From: a virus
Virus record (IMG/VR): IMGVR_UViG_3300035698_016708
Location: 1 to 21,179 of that record
DNA length: 21,179 nucleotides
Direction: 5' to 3' (one strand)
Below, in pieces: positions 2,308 through 21,179 of the stretch; within the stretch, counting starts at the first letter, position 1, and the number at the start of each line of letters is the position of its first letter. The position numbers were made by a program, and so were the translations under genes. The notes below the pieces were generated by a model. The model was not told the origin of the DNA. It was given only the letters and a program-made list of their open reading frames with translations, and did not search any database.

Positions 2308-2529
2308 ATGTCAGTTGCAACAGGACTAGTTTTATTAGGTCTAAAGCTAAGTATGGGTTTATGTTGTGGCAATTTTTTATTATTAGGTCTTAGTTTTTAT
2401 TCCGCAGAAAGATGTTGGGATAATAAAAACAATGCAGAAGAATTAAATAAAGATGAAAATAAAAGAGAAATAGGATGGTTTGAGAGAAAAATAGTAAAAT
2501 ATGTTTTATTTCATGTAGTAGTCGTGTAG
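2308..2529 (+). CDS. Possible small membrane protein
   Basis: 73 residues. Residues 3-30 are hydrophobic (TGLVLLGLKLSMGLCCGNFL and onward) and would form one or two membrane spans; the rest is a charged Asn/Glu/Lys-rich tail. There is no clear Shine-Dalgarno before ATG 2308, and the last 24 bases overlap the 3' end of the convergent integrase gene, so the C-terminal VVV may be accidental. It continues the plus-strand run of small genes. Function unknown. Confidence 0.4.
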   Translation: MSVATGLVLLGLKLSMGLCCGNFLLLGLSFYSAERCWDNKNNAEELNKDENKREIGWFERKIVKYVLFHVVVV

Positions 2530-3816
2530 TTTGTCGGCCACTATAACCATTTTACGGGCTTGGACATCGACATATTTCATTCTTTGTCCTTTTATAGTGT
2601 GGCCGATGAGACATAAAATTAAATCTGGATTGACTTCTCCCCATATTCCTGAAGTTGCACTATCTCTTAAGTGCTTGAAAGTAATTTTTGTTGTTTCTTC
2701 TACAAGTTCTAGATCAGGCTCATTATTTTGTAGTTCTTTTTCTCTTATTACTGCTAATATTTTATCCTTGAAATGGTCCTGAACTAATTTACTTTTTAAT
2801 TGCCCACCGTGCTTATTAAGAAAAATATATTCAGATGTATCTGGACTAGTTATTAATAGTTTATCTAATGCTTCTTTTGTTTCTTGCCATAAAATGGCTA
2901 CTCTAGGTTTGCCATTTTTTTCTCTGTTGAAATTACTATAAAAGTGCCCGTTATCTTTGCCTATCATATTTTTTTTGAACCCTTCAACGTCTTTTCCATA
3001 AAATGCTAAATTCATAGCACAATGTAATATAGCATTCCATTTTACATCATTTTTTACTACTGCTAGTATTCTTTTATATAGTTTAGGTGTAAGTGCTTTT
3101 GCCTTTTCTAGGTTATCATCTTTGTTGTATCCTTTTAATATATTGCAGTATTCAAGAATTTTAATTATATCATCTTTATTCTTTTTGCTATTATCTCTAT
3201 GGCACTTAAAAACTGTTTTTACCCTTTGAAATTTACCTACAATCCAGGTATTACTCCATCCATTTTTTTCATATTCATTTACTACTACTATTTTATATTT
3301 CTCAATATCATCATCTGTAATTTGTCTTAAAGTTGTTTTTCCTATTACCTTACAAAAATATTTCCAGTTATTTACAACTCTGCTTTTTTCTTCTTTGTCA
3401 TTCTTTTTACTCATTTCCAGATAAAAATTTATCAACTGTTCTAAGGGTATATCACTGTCTGGTGTTTTTATATTATGAAGGTGGGCTAGTTCAGGAATGC
3501 CACACAATTGAGCACATTCTATAGGATTTTCAGCCATCATATTAACAAATTGGATAGCTATCCATTCTTTATCAACTTGATCAATTTGTGAAGTAGCAGT
3601 AGTGATAGGTTGTCTCTCACTATCCCATTTTCTGAATTTAACAACTGCTCTATTAAATTCAGTTCCAAAAGATGTGGGTGTTTTCATATTATACTGTCTC
3701 CAGTGGGATGGGTAATAAATCCCATCCCCTCTCACAGAAAGTCCTTCTATGGGTTTTCCATTTATATCTTCGCAATATATGGGTGGTCTGCCTCTAGTTC
3801 TTCTTTTTTTATTCAT
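2506..3816 (-). CDS. Tyrosine recombinase/integrase 2 (box I arginine apparently missing)
   Basis: 436 residues from ATG 3816, chosen because GGAG lies nine bases upstream; an upstream in-frame TTG (3831) has no such site and overlaps the preceding gene. The N-terminal region has the G-I-Y-Y-P-S-H and F-R-K-W elements shared with its neighbour, a SAM-like/core-binding domain follows (about residues 120-215), and the catalytic domain is C-terminal. Box II reads KHLRDS (Arg about 384), with GH at 405-406 and the likely nucleophile Tyr at about 415 (MKYVDV). Where the first catalytic Arg is expected, the sequence is AFYGKDV (272-278), with Lys or Gly instead. It follows integrase 1 by four bases in the same operon. 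Either a diverged active enzyme or a regulatory/partner subunit. Confidence 0.85.
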   Translation of the reverse strand: MNKKRRTRGRPPIYCEDINGKPIEGLSVRGDGIYYPSHWRQYNMKTPTSFGTEFNRAVVKFRKWDSERQPITTATSQIDQVDKEWIAIQFVNMMAENPIECAQLCGIPELAHLHNIKTPDSDIPLEQLINFYLEMSKKNDKEEKSRVVNNWKYFCKVIGKTTLRQITDDDIEKYKIVVVNEYEKNGWSNTWIVGKFQRVKTVFKCHRDNSKKNKDDIIKILEYCNILKGYNKDDNLEKAKALTPKLYKRILAVVKNDVKWNAILHCAMNLAFYGKDVEGFKKNMIGKDNGHFYSNFNREKNGKPRVAILWQETKEALDKLLITSPDTSEYIFLNKHGGQLKSKLVQDHFKDKILAVIREKELQNNEPDLELVEETTKITFKHLRDSATSGIWGEVNPDLILCLIGHTIKGQRMKYVDVQARKMVIVADKLHDYYMK

Positions 3817-3820
3817 TTTA

Positions 3821-5317
3821 TTATTCTCCAAAAATTATTTCTTCTAATAATTTGCAAGCTTTTAGTGTTGCTTTTGGGGAACGGGCAAAATAATTATTAT
3901 CAAGACCTTTTATATCGTGCCCCAAAATTATATTTACAGGAATTTGTAATTCAGGTTGTTCTTCAAGAATTAAAGTTTCTGTAGTATCCCTCAAATTCTC
4001 AAAATTATAATTTATATTTTCTTCTGATTTTACTTTTTGCCACCAGTTATATATGGGTCTTCTTTTTAATTGCTTGCCTTTATAATCACAAAATAAGAAT
4101 TCTGATTTTATACCTATTTCGGTTCTTTCATTTAGCATTGCTTCAAGTGCTTCAACCGTCCGATCCCAAAGAACACAAGCTCTTATAGTTCCACCATTTT
4201 TTTGTTTTGTTTTGTGTCTGATTTTTTGTAGTGTTTTATTTTTAAAATCTATTTCATCTAATTTAGTATCAAGTAGGCAAGTATGCCTGAACCCCCCATT
4301 TAAAGACAATAAAAATACTGCTTTCATAGTTTTATTATCAGTGTTTTTAAGTATATTTTTTATTACACGAGGTGGTATTTTTACAGGTTTTGGTTTTGGT
4401 TTTTTAACAAATTCAAAATCTAAACACCATTTAGCCACTTCAAGCAATGCTTTTATATCATTTTTATCTTTTAATTGTTTTGGCTTATTTGTAAAAAGTT
4501 TTTTAACTACAGAAAACCGACTATTTACATAGGCATAACTTCTATTGCCTTTTTTAGCATTTCTTTTTACATAGTCATTGTAGTTATGTATATGTTCTAT
4601 TTTTACTGCTCCAAGTGTTTTTATTTTTGAATAATTACAAAATTCATTCCAGTAAGATTTTAAATCGGCTATATATTGTTTCCCAAAATCATTATTTTTT
4701 ATATGCCAAGTTAAAAGGTCTTCCAATTTTATTTTAGAGTTATGATCTGGAGCATCTTGTATTGTGATGTTTAAATTTAAACATTTTCTTGCATTTACAA
4801 TATCATCTAAAATAAGCTTTCTTGCTTTTGCCCATATATACGCTTCAGGAATTAAAGTTTCTAATTTAATTTGAACATTTGGATTATTTATAAAATGATC
4901 TACTGAAGCAGGATCGGTATTAAATTTTATAGAATCAGGATGGTCTTCATCAAGTCCTATATCTTCATAGAATTGCTTGAAGAATGCTTTATCTGCATCA
5001 GTTAATTTTTGTGTTATATGTGCTTTTTTAGGTAAGTCATCAGGTTCTATTTTTAGAGCTACTTTTGTTTTTGCATTCTCCCATTGCCTAAAAAGAAATA
5101 TAGCCTGTTCATAATCTTTACCAAAGTTTATACGTTTTCCCCCCTGCTTGTATTCTTCTGTTTCTTTATATTTCGTAGGATAGTAATAGCCGTTCCCACT
5201 ATCCCACGATAGACCTACAATAGGATTATGTTTTTGATCATTCACATAATGTATCTTCCCTACTCTGGTTCTGCTGAACGGAGGTTTAACGTTTTTTCTT
5301 TTGTAGATTTTAGTCAT
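3821..5317 (-). CDS. Tyrosine recombinase/integrase 1
   Basis: 498 residues, ATG 5317 after AAGGAG (spacing 7). An N-terminal segment contains a basic start (KRKNVKPPFSRTRVGKIHYV), GNGYYYPTKY (41-50) and FLFRQWENA (74-82), probably the arm-binding part. A core-binding domain follows at about 190-290. The catalytic domain shows box I NGGFRHT (Arg344), a beta-hairpin Lys near 369-371, ENLRDT (Arg443; the usual His of HxLR is Glu), LGHD (His467) and the nucleophile Tyr476 (NNYFA). It would integrate the phage at the tRNA-derived core at 5446-5470. The gene starts next to attP, so it is probably controlled from sequences overlapping the P arm and may be autoregulated. The fold and motifs are clear; the core-site match is inferred. 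Confidence 0.92.
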   Translation of the reverse strand: MTKIYKRKNVKPPFSRTRVGKIHYVNDQKHNPIVGLSWDSGNGYYYPTKYKETEEYKQGGKRINFGKDYEQAIFLFRQWENAKTKVALKIEPDDLPKKAHITQKLTDADKAFFKQFYEDIGLDEDHPDSIKFNTDPASVDHFINNPNVQIKLETLIPEAYIWAKARKLILDDIVNARKCLNLNITIQDAPDHNSKIKLEDLLTWHIKNNDFGKQYIADLKSYWNEFCNYSKIKTLGAVKIEHIHNYNDYVKRNAKKGNRSYAYVNSRFSVVKKLFTNKPKQLKDKNDIKALLEVAKWCLDFEFVKKPKPKPVKIPPRVIKNILKNTDNKTMKAVFLLSLNGGFRHTCLLDTKLDEIDFKNKTLQKIRHKTKQKNGGTIRACVLWDRTVEALEAMLNERTEIGIKSEFLFCDYKGKQLKRRPIYNWWQKVKSEENINYNFENLRDTTETLILEEQPELQIPVNIILGHDIKGLDNNYFARSPKATLKACKLLEEIIFGE

Positions 5318-5345
5318 TTTTTTACTCCTTATTTGAGTAGTTATA

Positions 5346-5386
5346 TTCTACAAAAGGAGCAAACCAAGTTCTACCAGAAATTCTAC
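5346..5386 (+). repeat. attP P-arm: three TTCTAC motifs
   Basis: TTCTAC occurs at 5346-5351, 5369-5374 and 5381-5386, all in the same orientation, the last two exactly 12 bp apart; two read ATTCTACAAAA. These lie between integrase 1 and the tRNA-like core and look like integrase arm-type sites. A possible minus-strand -10 (TATAAT, 5402-5407) for the integrase operon lies just outside this arm on the core side. Confidence 0.65.
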
Positions 5387-5445
5387 AAAAAATAGGGTAA
5401 AATTATAAGTGCTTTATATGAAGTGGGTTATAAGAGAAAAAATAA

Positions 5446-5470
5446 TGGGCGATACTGGACTTGAACCAGT
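5446..5470 (-). other. attP: attP core: 3' end of a tRNA gene (T-arm plus acceptor strand)
   Basis: Read on the minus strand, these 25 bases give a perfect T-arm (ACTGG, loop TTCAAGT, CCAGT) followed by a 7-nt acceptor strand ATCGCCC and discriminator A. The rest of a tRNA is not present upstream. A tRNA 3' end beside an integrase is the standard core of a temperate phage attachment site. The expected 5' acceptor strand, GGGCGAT, is common in bacterial tRNA-Val genes, so that is my best guess for the host target. Phage-like TTCTAC arms on both sides indicate attP, not attL or attR. Confidence 0.8.
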
Positions 5471-5475
5471 TCTAC

Positions 5476-5505
5476 CCCCATTCATAGGCTTATAATGGGG
5501 TTTTT
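5476..5505 (+). terminator. Rho-independent terminator inside attP
   Basis: CCCCATT (5476-5482) pairs with AATGGGG (5494-5500) around an 11-nt loop and is followed by TTTTT (5501-5505). The stem plus T-run reads as a plus-strand terminator. After integration it would block transcription entering the accessory module from the attachment-site side. The stem begins one base after a TTCTAC motif, so it could also affect recombination-complex geometry. Confidence 0.6.
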
Positions 5506-5515
5506 ATAGGGCAAG

Positions 5516-5533
5516 TTCTACAGGATGTTCTAC
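5516..5533 (+). repeat. attP P'-arm: paired TTCTAC motifs
   Basis: TTCTACA at 5516-5522 and again at 5528-5534, starts exactly 12 bp apart, matching the 12-bp spacing of the pair at 5369/5381 on the other side of the core. A sixth copy (5470-5475) overlaps the core edge. The symmetry around the core supports integrase arm sites. Confidence 0.65.
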
Positions 5534-5616
5534 AGTAATATTTGTATATGTATGTTAATACATACATCTTACATACTCATCAAAATTACCATAAAATATT
5601 TTATTATTTTTTTTAT

Positions 5617-5645
5617 TTGACAGTAATTTAATTTCTTGATATTAT
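5617..5645 (+). promoter_or_regulatory. Sigma70-type promoter
   Basis: A perfect -35 TTGACA (5617-5622), a 17-bp spacer, and -10 TATTAT (5640-5645), in an A/T-rich context with a T-rich upstream stretch. It points to the methyltransferase gene starting at 5718 and lies after the terminator in attP. That suggests the accessory module is transcribed on its own, possibly also from the prophage. Confidence 0.75.
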
Positions 5646-5717
5646 ACCTATTGTTCTTTATTGTGAGGGAAGATATGCAAACGGCAAGTGCTTGCCATTT
5701 TCATATATAGAGGTTAT

Positions 5718-6886
5718 ATGAGTATGAAGAAAGACGATAGAGAACTTATACGGTCTATTAAAGAACTCCATAAACAAATTATTTCTGACTATAAACAATC
5801 TCTAAATCGGTGTATTCAACTAGGGAATATTTTAGATAAGCAAAAAATTAGAGTAGGACGGGGTAATTTTATGGAATGGGTGAAATCCTATTTACCATTT
5901 TCTGAATGATCTTCGAGAAATTATATGGCTTTGTTCCATCATAAAGCTGAGTTAAAAGCAGCAGAAATAGAAAATATAAAAGATGCGTATGCTTATATAT
6001 CTAATTTTAATGCCCACATTCGAGATGCTCACAGAACAAAAACTAAAGCATACAGAAAAGAAGAAGCAAATAAAGATACAAAATTTACTAACCCTAGAAC
6101 TTACATCAATAAAATTATTTGTGGGGATAATATAAACATTATGAATAAAATGTTACAGACTATGAAAGGTAGATATAGTGCTGTAATTTGCTCTCCAAAT
6201 TATAATACAGGATTTAATTATGGAGATATATTTGATGATAATAAAGATTATGATATTTATTTAAATGACCTATTAAAGCCATTTGAGTATTATAAAAAGT
6301 TATTAAGGGTAGGTGGTAGAGTTATTTATATTTTGGGGAATAATACAGGTGAAGATAATACAGGTGATAGGTATGAACTTGTAGCAGAACTATTAAATAG
6401 AGTTAAAATAGAACATCCTGAATTCAAGGTTTATAATATGATAATATGGGACAAAGGTAAGAAGGGGATGAACCCGTTGAATACTAAATTTGGTTCTTTT
6501 TGTTCTCCAATAGAACCATCAATGAGATTGAAACATGAGTATATTATTATATGGAGTTTAGAACAATATAAATTACCTAATATAAATAATGTAGTTTCAG
6601 ACATCTCCAAAAAAGAATTCAAAGAATGGACGTGGAGCACTTGGGAAATATCACCTTATGTCTTTCCAAAAAATATACATCCCTGCTCCTATCCTCCTAA
6701 ACTAATTGAAAGAATTTTGAAAATATATACTTACCCACAAGACCTAATTCTTGATCCTTATAGTGGGGCGGGCATCACAGGGTTAATGTGTAAAAAAATA
6801 AACGACAATATACGATGATAGATTTGAACCCTAATTTTTGTTCTTATGCAAAAAAGATAATAGATAAAGCAAGTAAGAATAAGTAG
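5718..6886 (+). pseudogene. DUF3102-like/beta-class DNA methyltransferase, interrupted by UGA and a frameshift
   Basis: Start at ATG 5718 (AGAGG four bases upstream; ATG 5724 is an alternative). The N-terminal 85 residues have a DUF3102-like pattern (RGNFMEWVKSYLPFSE, then SSRNYMALF), but an in-frame TGA at 5907-5909 separates these two pieces, where the family usually has Arg or a similar residue. The same frame resumes with a beta-class amino-methyltransferase: motif IV CSPNYNTGFNYG, then a G-S-F-C-S-P-x-x-P-S-M-R-L-K segment, then the AdoMet-binding DPYSGAGITG. Near 6808 one base appears lost: frame 1 ends ...KKINDN, and the next frame supplies the expected tail YTMIDLNPNFCSYAKKII to a stop at 6884-6886. 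It would methylate C-N4 or A-N6. A restart at ATG 5925 could make a protein without the N-terminal domain, ending out of frame at 6818. Confidence 0.75.
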
Positions 6887-7388: not shown

Positions 7389-8462
7389 ATGCCACCAGCA
7401 CTATCAACAACAAAAAATCCTTTTTGGAATAATAAAAAGAATAGCACTATATATACTCCTACATACATATCAGAGTTTATATATGAAATTATATCTCCTG
7501 TGCTGAAACCTAAAGTAATTCTTGATCCTGCTATTGGTAAAGGTTCTTTAATTCTCCCCTGGAAAAAAAGTAAAATAATAGGAGTTGATATAGATGTTAA
7601 AAGTAAAAAGTATTGTGATTATTTTCACAAGGGAAAATTTGAGAATATAGAGAATTGGAAATTTCCTGTTCCTGATTTAATAGTTTGTAATCCACCATGA
7701 AATTCTGCTGAAGGAAAAAAACTATATCCAGAAGTATTTATAAAACAAATGGTAAATTTATTTGGTTCTAAAATACCTATATTATTATTTACTCCTATGG
7801 GTTTTAGACTAAATCAGAAAAAAACTAGTAAAAGGTATCAATGGTTAATTTATAGTGAAATAGAAATATCAACTATTATTAGTTTGCCTTTAGATGCTTT
7901 TGGTTTTACTACTACACAAAGTGAAATTTTACTATTTAATATACCTGAATTAAAACCACACTACTGGATATATAATAAAGAAGAACTTGTAAAACAAAAA
8001 CTAATTACAAAGACGCAACAAAAAGGAAAAAACAAAATGGCTAAACAAAAAAACGAAATTACTATTGATGGAGAAACTTATATTCTCAAAAGTTCTGTTG
8101 CAGGAATAGATGTAGCAGCACTGAAAAAGAAATTTACTGCATACTGGAACACTTGCGAAAAGGCAGAAACACTACTTGCAGAAATAAATAATATTATTTC
8201 TGGGGAAAAATCAGAAACAACAAAAACAACAGACAAAGAAAAAAAAGATTATCCAACAAAAAAAAATAGAAATGGGATGGTTGTGATGATAATACTAAAA
8301 TCAGCAAAAAAACCAATGACAAAAAATGAAGTAGAATTTGAACTAAAAAAGAATAAAACTATAAATGCTAATTCGGCGAAACAACAACTTGATCATTTCA
8401 ATTGTTTTGTAATTACAAAAGAAGGAAATAAAAACTTATATTCATATAAGAAAGTAGAATAA
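7389..8462 (+). pseudogene. Gamma-class N6-adenine methyltransferase with UGA at the catalytic Trp
   Basis: One reading frame interrupted only by TGA at 7698-7700. The first part has S-T-I-Y-T-P-T-Y-I-S (residues 19-28), typical of Eco57I/type I-like methyltransferases before motif I, then the AdoMet-binding ILDPAIGKGSL and VDID. Motif IV reads DLIVCNPP-TGA-NSAEGKK, where the family has NPPW/F/Y; TGA falls exactly at the aromatic residue that stacks on the target adenine. The frame continues with plausible methyltransferase sequence (LPLDAFGFTTTQSEILLFN). Order motif I then IV marks the gamma class. No RBS is obvious before ATG 7389. At the 3' end the frame runs without a stop into a separate-looking domain starting at 8037. 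It is either a dead gene or one needing UGA read-through as Trp. Confidence 0.75.
8037..8462 (+). CDS. Possible separately translated winged-helix-like protein
   Basis: In frame with the methyltransferase upstream, but an ATG at 8037 preceded by AAAAGG about 10 bases earlier suggests its own start (141 residues, MAKQKNEITIDGETYILKSS). Residues 1-55 contain a helical segment (ALKKKFTAYWNTCEKAETLL), then a Lys/Thr-rich linker, then residues 80-141 with a winged-helix-like pattern (MVVMIILKSAKKPMTKNEVE, then YSYKKVE). A methyltransferase stop may have been lost: CAA at 8018-8020, just before this RBS, is one base from TAA. It could be the specificity/DNA-binding partner of the methyltransferase or a regulator. 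Function not established. Confidence 0.5.
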   Translation: MAKQKNEITIDGETYILKSSVAGIDVAALKKKFTAYWNTCEKAETLLAEINNIISGEKSETTKTTDKEKKDYPTKKNRNGMVVMIILKSAKKPMTKNEVEFELKKNKTINANSAKQQLDHFNCFVITKEGNKNLYSYKKVE

Positions 8463-12121: not shown

Positions 12122-13720
12122 TTATGGACAACAACTCCCATCATAAGTAGTCCAAGTTAATGTAGTCAATCCGTTAAAGGTAAGGTCTATTAGGACACCT
12201 GGAAATTCAATCGGGCATGAGAGAGTTTCACCTCCGGGATTAAAAATCCAACCGTCCCAGCACAAACCATTTATCAATTCCATTTCAGCATTTTCTCCAA
12301 TTATCAAATATACATAGCCGTGTTCACCACAATTTTCTACTCCTCTGTATGTGCAATCGCTTATTTTTTCCATCACTACATTGCCACAATCTTCATCTCC
12401 CTCAATAGTTACATTCATACAAAACGTGTCAGGGAAAAGACAACAACAATTTGCACAAGTATCTGAACTACTTGAACTAGAACTTAAACTAGAACTTGAA
12501 CTACTTAAACTACTACTTATACTACTTGAACTTGAACTACTTACACTACTTGAACTTGAACTTATACTACTACTTGAACTACTTAGACTACTACTACTTG
12601 AACTACTTATAGAACTTGAACTTGAACTTAAACTACTACTTGAACTATCACTACTTGAACTACTCATACTTGAACTTGAACTACTTAATTTACTTGAAGC
12701 AGATGAAGTGCTTGAAGTGCTTGAAGTGCTTGAAGTGCTTGAAGTGCTTGAGCTACTAACTGAACTGCTTGAACTACTCAAACTTGAACTTATACTACTT
12801 GAACTTGAACTACTTATACTAGAGCTTGAACTACTTAAACTGCTACTACTTGAACTTAAACTGCTTGAGCTTGAACTACTTAAACTGCTACTGCTTGAAC
12901 TTATACTACTTGAACTTGAACTAACACTACTTGAACTACTACTAATAGAACTGCTTGAACTACTACTGATAGAACTACTTGAAGAACTAACACTACTTGA
13001 ACTGCTTGAACTTAAACTACTTGAACTACTTGAACTTATACTACTTGAACTTATACTACTTGAACTACTTGAACTTATACTACTTGAACTTGAACTGTCA
13101 GGAATATCATCCCAATGCTTATCAACAAGTACACTCGGATTTACATCTACATACGGAACATCAGGGATTGGATTACAACTTACAATTGCGTCAGGAACTT
13201 CAATACTTGGATTTTCTATTAAATTACAACCTATATTACTGTGATACGCCCAATTGGTGCAGGGTGGACAACCTCCATTATAGTCAGAAGAACTCCATAA
13301 CATTGCGAAACTTTTGGTCCCTGCTTCTAAATACCACGCATCAAAATTTCCATTCCCATCTTCTGCACAATAAATATAAAAATATTGTGCTTCACAAAAA
13401 GGTTCGCAAAAGTCCCAATTCGGGATAAAATGAGCTACCCAAACGCAACTTTCTCCAGTATCTGGCTTCCATATATCACGTCGCAATTCAAAATTCCCAC
13501 CTCTCTCAAATTCGTCAGGAGGAGGAAGATAACCTCCAAGAACCCAACAATCACCCATCCATCCTTCAGGTTCAAAACTAACCCAAAGGGAGTTCTGACA
13601 TTTGCCGCAATTAGTACAAATTTCACAACAACAATCATTATCCATTGCTATTACTTTTCCTAGTGAGGGATTTGTATTAGTGAATAATATTTTACCATTA
13701 TAGAATTGGATATTGCCCAT
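12122..13720 (-). CDS. Cys-rich protein with about 210-residue serine-repeat linker
   Basis: 532 residues. Residues 1-208 are a Cys- and Trp-rich domain (CCCEICTNCGKC at 30-41, further Cys pairs at 104-108 and 151-154). Residues 209-419 are almost pure Ser with periodic Ile, Leu or Val every 6-8 residues and a short (SST)n section. Residues 420-532 are a second Cys-rich domain (DTCANCCCLF ... TYDGSCCP). The layout is two folded ends joined by a long flexible linker, as in surface appendages; it probably sits at the tail tip or fibre. The start is uncertain: the Shine-Dalgarno AGGAG lies about 14 bases from ATG 13720, and the frame is continuous with the preceding gene except for one TGA (13724-13726). 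It may be produced partly by read-through. Confidence 0.75.
   Translation of the reverse strand: MGNIQFYNGKILFTNTNPSLGKVIAMDNDCCCEICTNCGKCQNSLWVSFEPEGWMGDCWVLGGYLPPPDEFERGGNFELRRDIWKPDTGESCVWVAHFIPNWDFCEPFCEAQYFYIYCAEDGNGNFDAWYLEAGTKSFAMLWSSSDYNGGCPPCTNWAYHSNIGCNLIENPSIEVPDAIVSCNPIPDVPYVDVNPSVLVDKHWDDIPDSSSSSSISSSSSSSISSSSISSSSSSSLSSSSSSSVSSSSSSISSSSSSSISSSSSSVSSSSSSISSSSSSLSSSSSSSLSSSSSSLSSSSSSISSSSSSSISSSLSSSSSSVSSSSTSSTSSTSSTSSTSSASSKLSSSSSSMSSSSSDSSSSSLSSSSSSISSSSSSSLSSSSSSISSSSSSVSSSSSSSISSSLSSSSSSLSSSSSSSDTCANCCCLFPDTFCMNVTIEGDEDCGNVVMEKISDCTYRGVENCGEHGYVYLIIGENAEMELINGLCWDGWIFNPGGETLSCPIEFPGVLIDLTFNGLTTLTWTTYDGSCCP
12464..13096 (-). repeat. Serine-codon low-complexity repeat tract
   Basis: About 630 bases built from degenerate TCA/AGT/TCT/AGC serine codons, in units like TTCAAGTAGTTCAAGT, with Ile, Leu or Val codons interspersed. 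Near 12704-12750 there is an exact tandem of GAAGTGCTT (plus-strand reading), about five copies. Such DNA can change length by slippage or recombination, and it closely resembles the tract at 20797-21179. Confidence 0.85.
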
Positions 13721-20742: not shown

Positions 20743-21179
20743 TTATTCGTAAAGATAATTTACTTTAACCCACCAAGGCTTGAATGCAGGTGCGTCGCTT
20801 GAACTACTACTGCTTATAGAACTTGAACTTGAACTAATAGAACTACTTGAACTTGAACTACTTATAGAACTTGAACTACTTGAAGAACTTAAGCTACTTG
20901 AACTCGAAGAGCTAACAGAACTTGAACTTGAACTTATTGAACTACTTGAACTTGAACTTATACTACTTGAACTAGAACTTATTGAACTGCTACTTGAAGA
21001 ACTTACAGAACTACTACTTGAAGAACTCACAGAACTACTACTTGAAGAACTTAAACTACTTGAACTACTACTCAAACTACTTGAACTAGAACTTATTGAA
21101 CTACTTGAACTACTACTTATTGAACTACTTGAACTCACAGAACTACTACTTGAAGAACTTAAACTACTTGAACTACTAC
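20743..21179 (-). CDS. C-terminal part of a serine-rich virion-associated protein (5' end outside window)
   Basis: 145 codons visible; the frame stays open to the right edge, so the true start is outside the window. Everything up to about position 20797 is Ser with single Ile, Leu or Val every 6-8 residues; the final 17 residues are DAPAFKPWWVKVNYLYE. The gene sits upstream of the connector, where capsid, decoration or capsid-fibre genes lie. The C-terminal Trp pair could dock the flexible chain on the head or neck. Composition strongly resembles the linker of the protein at 12122-13720. Confidence 0.7.
   Translation of the reverse strand, partial: SSSSSLSSSSSSSVSSSSSISSSSSSSISSSSSSLSSSSSSLSSSSSSSVSSSSSSSVSSSSSSSISSSSSSISSSSSSSISSSSSSVSSSSSSSLSSSSSSSSISSSSSSSSISSSSSSISSSSSSDAPAFKPWWVKVNYLYE
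20797..21179 (-). repeat. Serine-codon low-complexity repeat tract 2
   Basis: About 380 bases of the same degenerate serine-codon pattern as at 12464-13096 (units like TCAAGTAGTAGTTCT). It continues to the window edge. Two long, near-identical, same-strand tracts about 7.7 kb apart could recombine or misassemble. Confidence 0.8.

Follow-up and report, generated by a model that had tools for sequence, protein, structure and literature searches.

Insertion at the end of a tRNA gene of the bacterial host is a well-known strategy of temperate phages. Two described systems serve for comparison here. In mycobacteriophage Ms6, attP belongs to the T-loop class (class II sublocation) and its 26-bp core stops before the variable region of the tRNA, according to the excerpted text of that report (PMC1762012). 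In the phages of Cluster J (Omega, BAKA), a tRNA core is flanked on each side by paired direct repeats, putatively of the arm type, and arm-like sites also occur where int starts, according to an excerpt of PMC3706429. T-loop cores (Ms6) and two-sided paired arm sites (Cluster J) are each already known separately.

We found a site that resembles both in a virus record of 21,179 nucleotides (IMG/VR record IMGVR_UViG_3300035698_016708; "the window" refers to this whole 21-kb stretch). Positions 5346 to 5533 are very likely the attP of a temperate tailed phage that has been little studied, at which the integrase Int1 would bind arm and core sites and carry out strand exchange within the T-loop of a tRNA gene of the host. 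A first-pass annotation, made from the DNA letters, had also read the region as a complete attP, and the core, the motif cluster and the element ends of relatives support that reading. As in Ms6, the core in the window covers the T-loop at the 3' end of a tRNA without the variable region. The Ms6 target is tRNA-Ala in mycobacteria, and we liken the two by core layout, not by integrase sequence or arm sites (PMC1762012, in excerpt). As in Cluster J, paired repeats lie on both sides of the core and a further site lies at the start of int. In contrast, the Cluster J core is 44 bp long and reaches the anticodon loop of tRNA-Leu, attP is 3' of int, and the sites at the start of int are inverted (PMC3706429, in excerpt). 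The strongest support for the attP in the window is comparative, at the level of sequence: relatives have repeat pairs spaced by 12 bp upstream of int, with motifs of their own, and two of them have such pairs at both ends of their elements.

The core lies at 5446-5470 on the minus strand. Read from 5470 to 5446, its 25 bp consist of T-stem (ACTGG), T-loop (TTCAAGT), T-stem (CCAGT), acceptor strand (ATCGCCC) and discriminator base (A), with the structure assigned by eye. Exact copies of this 25-mer were present in at least 119 stretches of genome_contigs. Among the matches listed, 107 of 119 were inside genes called as tRNA-Val by ARAGORN (73 GAC, 28 CAC and 6 TAC), one was inside tRNA-Lys(CTT), and 11 were without a tRNA call. 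Three of those 11 were cut by the ends of their loci (L045, L075, L088); the other eight (L017, L040, L050, L056, L058, L118, L127, L128) resemble tRNA ends that belong to other elements and have been displaced. A 24-mer of the core was found in eight IMG/VR stretches, five of them inside tRNA-Val and three without a tRNA. The first-pass annotation had described a 25-bp T-arm and acceptor segment beside the integrase; the segment is indeed the 3' end of real bacterial tRNA genes, and the gene 128 bp away encodes a tyrosine recombinase. The three bases before the 25-mer are AGA in the window and GTC, GCC or ATC in all 119 matches listed, indicating that the identity with the tRNA begins at T-stem position 49. 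The core matches a tRNA 3' end exactly, with the T-loop inside it and the variable region outside, and by this layout the site is of the T-loop class of tRNA att sites. A search of the 21-kb window for tRNA genes revealed no whole tRNA gene. By comparison with the T-loop class (PMC1762012, in excerpt), the T-loop TTCAAGT (5459-5465, minus strand), which ACTGG and CCAGT enclose, is predicted to be the 7-bp crossover segment, and the two T-stem halves around it would be the core-type sites.

The target is most likely tRNA-Val. The prediction that it would be a tRNA-Val starting with GGGCGAT fits the commonest owner of the 25-mer, and one match departs from it: in G011 (Planctomycetes bacterium GWC2_45_44), which carries one of the two closest integrases, the 25-mer is the 3' end of tRNA-Lys(CTT). 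A target of tRNA-Lys(CTT), or of another isotype with the same 3' end, is nonetheless unlikely, as the 25-mer is in tRNA-Val in five of the six genomes of the planctomycete order of G011 that carry it, as well as in the large majority of the genome matches counted above. A separate 73.6-kb viral contig (IMGVR_UViG_3300036987_000420; L002 and L007) contains a whole tRNA-Val and a second copy, ~59 kb away, that starts near the anticodon loop. This is another element that uses tRNA-Val with the same 24-mer and has a longer core.

Around the core are six copies of TTCTAC, all on the plus strand as the first-pass annotation had reported, starting at 5346, 5369, 5381, 5470, 5516 and 5528 (spacings of 23, 12, 89, 46 and 12; span 5346-5533). 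On the int strand the motif reads GTAGAA, and the next base is C or T in every copy. Two pairs, 5369/5381 and 5516/5528, flank the core; the copies in each pair are 12 bp apart, and both pairs belong to one 23-nt direct repeat (83% identity). At the level of sequence, then, arm-type direct repeats are present on both sides of the core. The candidate int-proximal arm pair (5369-5386, minus strand) is 72 bp from the T-loop, and a 12-bp pair is likewise found upstream of int in related loci. The candidate far pair (5516-5533, minus strand) is 50 bp from the T-loop, a layout also seen at the far end of the G011 element and of an element in a second genome, G314. The layout proposed earlier, with 12-bp pairs on both sides, holds with one refinement: the motif at 5470-5475 (minus strand) overlaps the core by one base. 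We noticed no counterpart of this core-adjacent motif in the flanks of the G011 and G314 elements. The sixth motif (5346-5351, minus strand) lies a short way upstream of the start codon of int1 (5317) and, by analogy with Cluster J (PMC3706429, in excerpt), may be an extra arm site or serve int autoregulation. In terms of sequence, the six motifs comprise four clear candidates for paired arm sites, one motif next to the core and one by the start of int.

The motif is concentrated in this region. There are 20 matches on both strands of the whole window (13.2 expected), 14 of them outside the cluster. The 188 bp of the cluster contain six, compared to a maximum of three TTCTAC or GTAGAA per 188 bp in 300 dinucleotide shuffles of the window, so TTCTAC is not equally frequent across the phage. 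Other hexamers also cluster strongly; one reaches a count of 18, probably reflecting serine-repeat genes, and one reaches six in the first 12.3 kb. The count of TTCTAC alone is therefore no proof, and it is the arrangement around the tRNA end that singles out this cluster. Between the core and the far pair (5476-5500, plus strand) is a hairpin followed by a run of T's, which we considered as a possible terminator. This role is weakly indicated (fold of -9.8 kcal/mol, z -1.1), and a terminator scan did not pick up the hairpin. A promoter-like site on the plus strand (5617-5645; 11 of 12 positions, with an extended -10) is upstream of the methylase genes; overall, promoter-like matches in the window were no commoner than in shuffles.

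The copies of GTAGAA lie between this promoter-like site and the divergent int, with one copy near the int start, an arrangement that could also be expected if they were operators for int or for the methylase operon and the tRNA piece were a decayed phage tRNA gene. We regard this as extremely improbable. The tRNA piece is intact and begins exactly at the T-stem, and the relatives described below have real attL and attR sites with pairs at both ends, one of which is far from int.

The gene adjacent to the predicted attP encodes Int1 (3821-5317, minus strand; 498 amino acids), a tyrosine recombinase by its matches to Pfam Phage_integrase (PF00589, E 2.9e-13) and to a PHROG integrase (E 1.4e-12). 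Its start at 5317 is the point that is 128 bp from the core. A second, divergent tyrosine recombinase, Int2 (2506-3831, minus strand; there is an ATG start option at 3816), was recognized by BLASTP to Int1 (24% identity, E 6e-14) and by a PHROG integrase match (2.5e-07); its Pfam match was below the gathering score. The two genes are in tandem and overlap by 11 nt at the 3' end of int1. Arm-binding domains are a hallmark of mobile tyrosine recombinases according to the excerpted text of PMC8138268. An AlphaFold model of Int1 built from a two-row alignment (pLDDT 38) was of too low confidence to be used for the arm-binding fold.

By eye, in alignment with the RKHRH-Y active site, all residues but the first His can be recognized in Int1 (Arg I, Lys, Arg II, second His, Tyr); another residue is at the place of the first His. 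Among the members that we aligned and translated (Int1, Int2, L130, L140, L141, L148-L154 and L191-L193), only window Int1 and L193 retain Arg I; the others have Lys, Tyr, Leu or Thr there. An Arg two residues before the catalytic Lys is invariant in an 11-row alignment. Loss or shift of the first Arg has been described for the CTnDOT-type and IntDes recombinases (PMC8138268, in excerpt). The relatives divide into Int1-like (L148, L130) and Int2-like (L152, L153), and one integrase was seen at each relative locus. We can imagine that recombination is done by a mixed tandem pair, Int1 (with Arg I) and Int2 (with another residue there, like most of the family), possibly at different core or arm sites, and that a fixed 12-bp register of arm pairs is kept while only the letters of the motif evolve. 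This is speculative, and we think it improbable.

The 12-bp spacing of pairs is a property of the group of relatives. Among 10 loci of relatives found in the order of G011, four are directly 3' of a whole tRNA gene in the same orientation (Glu, Pro, Ser and Leu). At 10 loci, of which the window is one, we scanned a stretch of 250 bp upstream of int (151 bp at L153) for exact direct repeats at lags of 8-40. Summed over the 10 scanned loci, the longest exact runs came to 74 at lag 12 compared to no more than 48 at any other lag. Lag 12 had first been noticed by eye in the window and four of these loci; for this the shuffle control takes the best of all lags, and in 1000 sets of dinucleotide shuffles the best lag (8-40) averaged 46 and never exceeded 54. 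Lag 12 ranked first at six loci, second at three (including the window) and 17th at one (L153, for which only 151 bp was available). Three later full-length members, outside the first test and unseen before lag 12 was noticed, had lag 12 at ranks 1, 1 and 6, so that lag 12 ranked first or second at 11 of 13 loci. L192 was without a leading lag-12 pair. The count leaves out window Int2 as well as the locus L149/L134, whose integrase gene is interrupted so that the called start is downstream and the upstream stretch is not comparable; by eye, L134 has a repeat spaced by 13 bp. The letters of the paired motif vary from locus to locus (for example, ACTACAT, AGTTTTATTC and TAAACTT), and the spacing is constant. 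Judging by these repeat scans, the integrase family keeps a 12-bp arm-pair spacing while the motif changes. In a narrow literature search we found no published description of a constant 12-bp pair spacing in this planctomycete integrase group.

We also looked for attL and attR in relatives, and both ends were visible in G011 and G314 as repeats of a tRNA 3' end. These elements are like the window in having a homologous integrase, a T-arm core of 23-25 bp and 12-bp pairs at both ends. They differ in having another tRNA (tRNA-Glu in G011, tRNA-Ser in G314), another arm motif and one integrase at the locus, and in being integrated. In G011, the two ends of the element are on different contigs. 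The second contig has another copy of the tRNA-Glu end, and the direct repeat of 23 bp begins at the T-loop. Both ends contain the 19-bp pair ACTACATCTAATACTACAT, identical in sequence and orientation; at the far end it lies 52 bp before the T-loop, and at the end with int it follows the T-loop by 62 bp. In G314 there are three copies of the tRNA-Ser end in the same orientation: one is the whole gene, one is a 62-bp copy immediately preceding the integrase, and the third lies ~40.7 kb farther on. The same 43 bp follow the third copy and the whole gene, which we read as the return to host DNA. The element bounded by the second and third copies carries a direct repeat of 25 bp. Inside each of its ends is an ACTTA pair with 12-bp spacing, at 48 bp before the T-loop in one case and 46 bp after it in the other. 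The distance from the far pair to the T-loop is similar in the three cases (48 bp in G314, 50 bp in the window and 52 bp in G011). In addition, at L191 an inverted tRNA end is flanked by pairs on either side. At the tRNA-Pro locus of G543, we searched for a second copy of the tRNA end and found none. The paired motifs and their conserved layout agree with the integrase arm sites predicted by the first-pass annotation, and the pairs are putative sites of arm binding.

The interval in G314 from the whole tRNA-Ser gene to the second copy has its own 12-bp pairs at both ends, so two integrated elements seem to be in tandem at one tRNA-Ser (G314:C1:3872356-3938037; L159-L161). The second element apparently inserted into the remnant of the tRNA that the first had left behind and not into the whole gene. 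Such a junction can look like attP: the tRNA-Ser copy at 3,913,117 lies between the two elements and has 12-bp pairs on both sides. The window could by the same token be a junction of two tandem prophages and not a free phage genome. We consider this a long shot, since the window is a virus record in which tail and connector genes lie to one side of the site and int, with further genes, to the other, and a single free phage is the simpler account. The earlier proposal that the sequence is the non-integrated form stands as the simplest reading of one core with both arms, with the caveat that the tandem elements of G314 give a like arrangement in a chromosome.

The host is likely a planctomycete of the order of G011. 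Among 30 genomes that contain the core 25-mer, G011 was the one with a relative of Int1 (33% identity, nearly full length, E 4.5e-53). Relatives of Int1 were present in 9 of 161 genomes of that order and in 2 of 392 genomes drawn evenly from the phylum of G011. The bacteria with the nearest of these integrases are uncultured planctomycetes. There were none in 392 genomes of another phylum (centered on L017, Spirochaetales) or in 14 genomes of a third (centered on L050, Omnitrophota), and each of these empty results shows little alone. It is the presence of relatives in the order together with their absence from the two other phyla that makes a planctomycete of that order the likely host. At the thresholds applied, searches of IMG/VR and of the phage and plasmid collections detected no relatives of Int1; an alignment search of IMG/VR with Int1 and Int2 gave 600 pattern stretches, none of which was confirmed, and a search of IMG/VR for relatives via the head-tail adaptor also gave none. 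Other genes are less telling. The tape measure protein matches many unrelated phages and 2 of the 161 genomes of the order, and therefore does not fix the host; the methylase matches phages of many hosts; and one tail-region protein of unknown function had no phage match. We found no lysogen or close relative of the window phage, and a 30-mer across the core edge had no matches in genome_contigs.

We propose the following for the phage attP in the window. The N-terminal domain of Int1 would bind the GTAGAA pairs spaced by 12 bp on both sides, and its core-binding domain would bind the T-stem repeats. Int1 bound to the pairs would fold attP into an intasome, and strand exchange would occur in the T-loop of the host tRNA gene, most likely a tRNA-Val with a GGGCGAT acceptor. 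The phage core would restore the tRNA 3' end, leaving the tRNA intact at the int-proximal junction with int just behind it, and the 25-bp remnant would mark the far junction. The sixth motif, by the start of int, might have a part in regulating int, as has been proposed for the phages of Cluster J (PMC3706429, in excerpt).

The window provides a complete and testable predicted attP for a phage whose integrase is unmatched in the viral, phage and plasmid collections searched, and it indicates a planctomycete order as the likely host. The 12-bp spacing rule can also be used to find att sites and the ends of elements in metagenomic genomes.

Two methyltransferase-like genes (5688-6818 and 7389-8462) are each broken by an in-frame TGA (at 5907-5909 and 7698-7700, respectively), and the first also seems to be frame-shifted near its 3' end (~6790-6818). 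The TGA at 7698-7700 is within an NPP-TGA-N motif, where Trp is expected. We considered global recoding of TGA as tryptophan; several tail-region genes end in TGA, leaving this unsupported. Two further genes (12122-13720 and 20743-21138) contain long serine-rich repeats, in which runs of S are broken by I, V or L.
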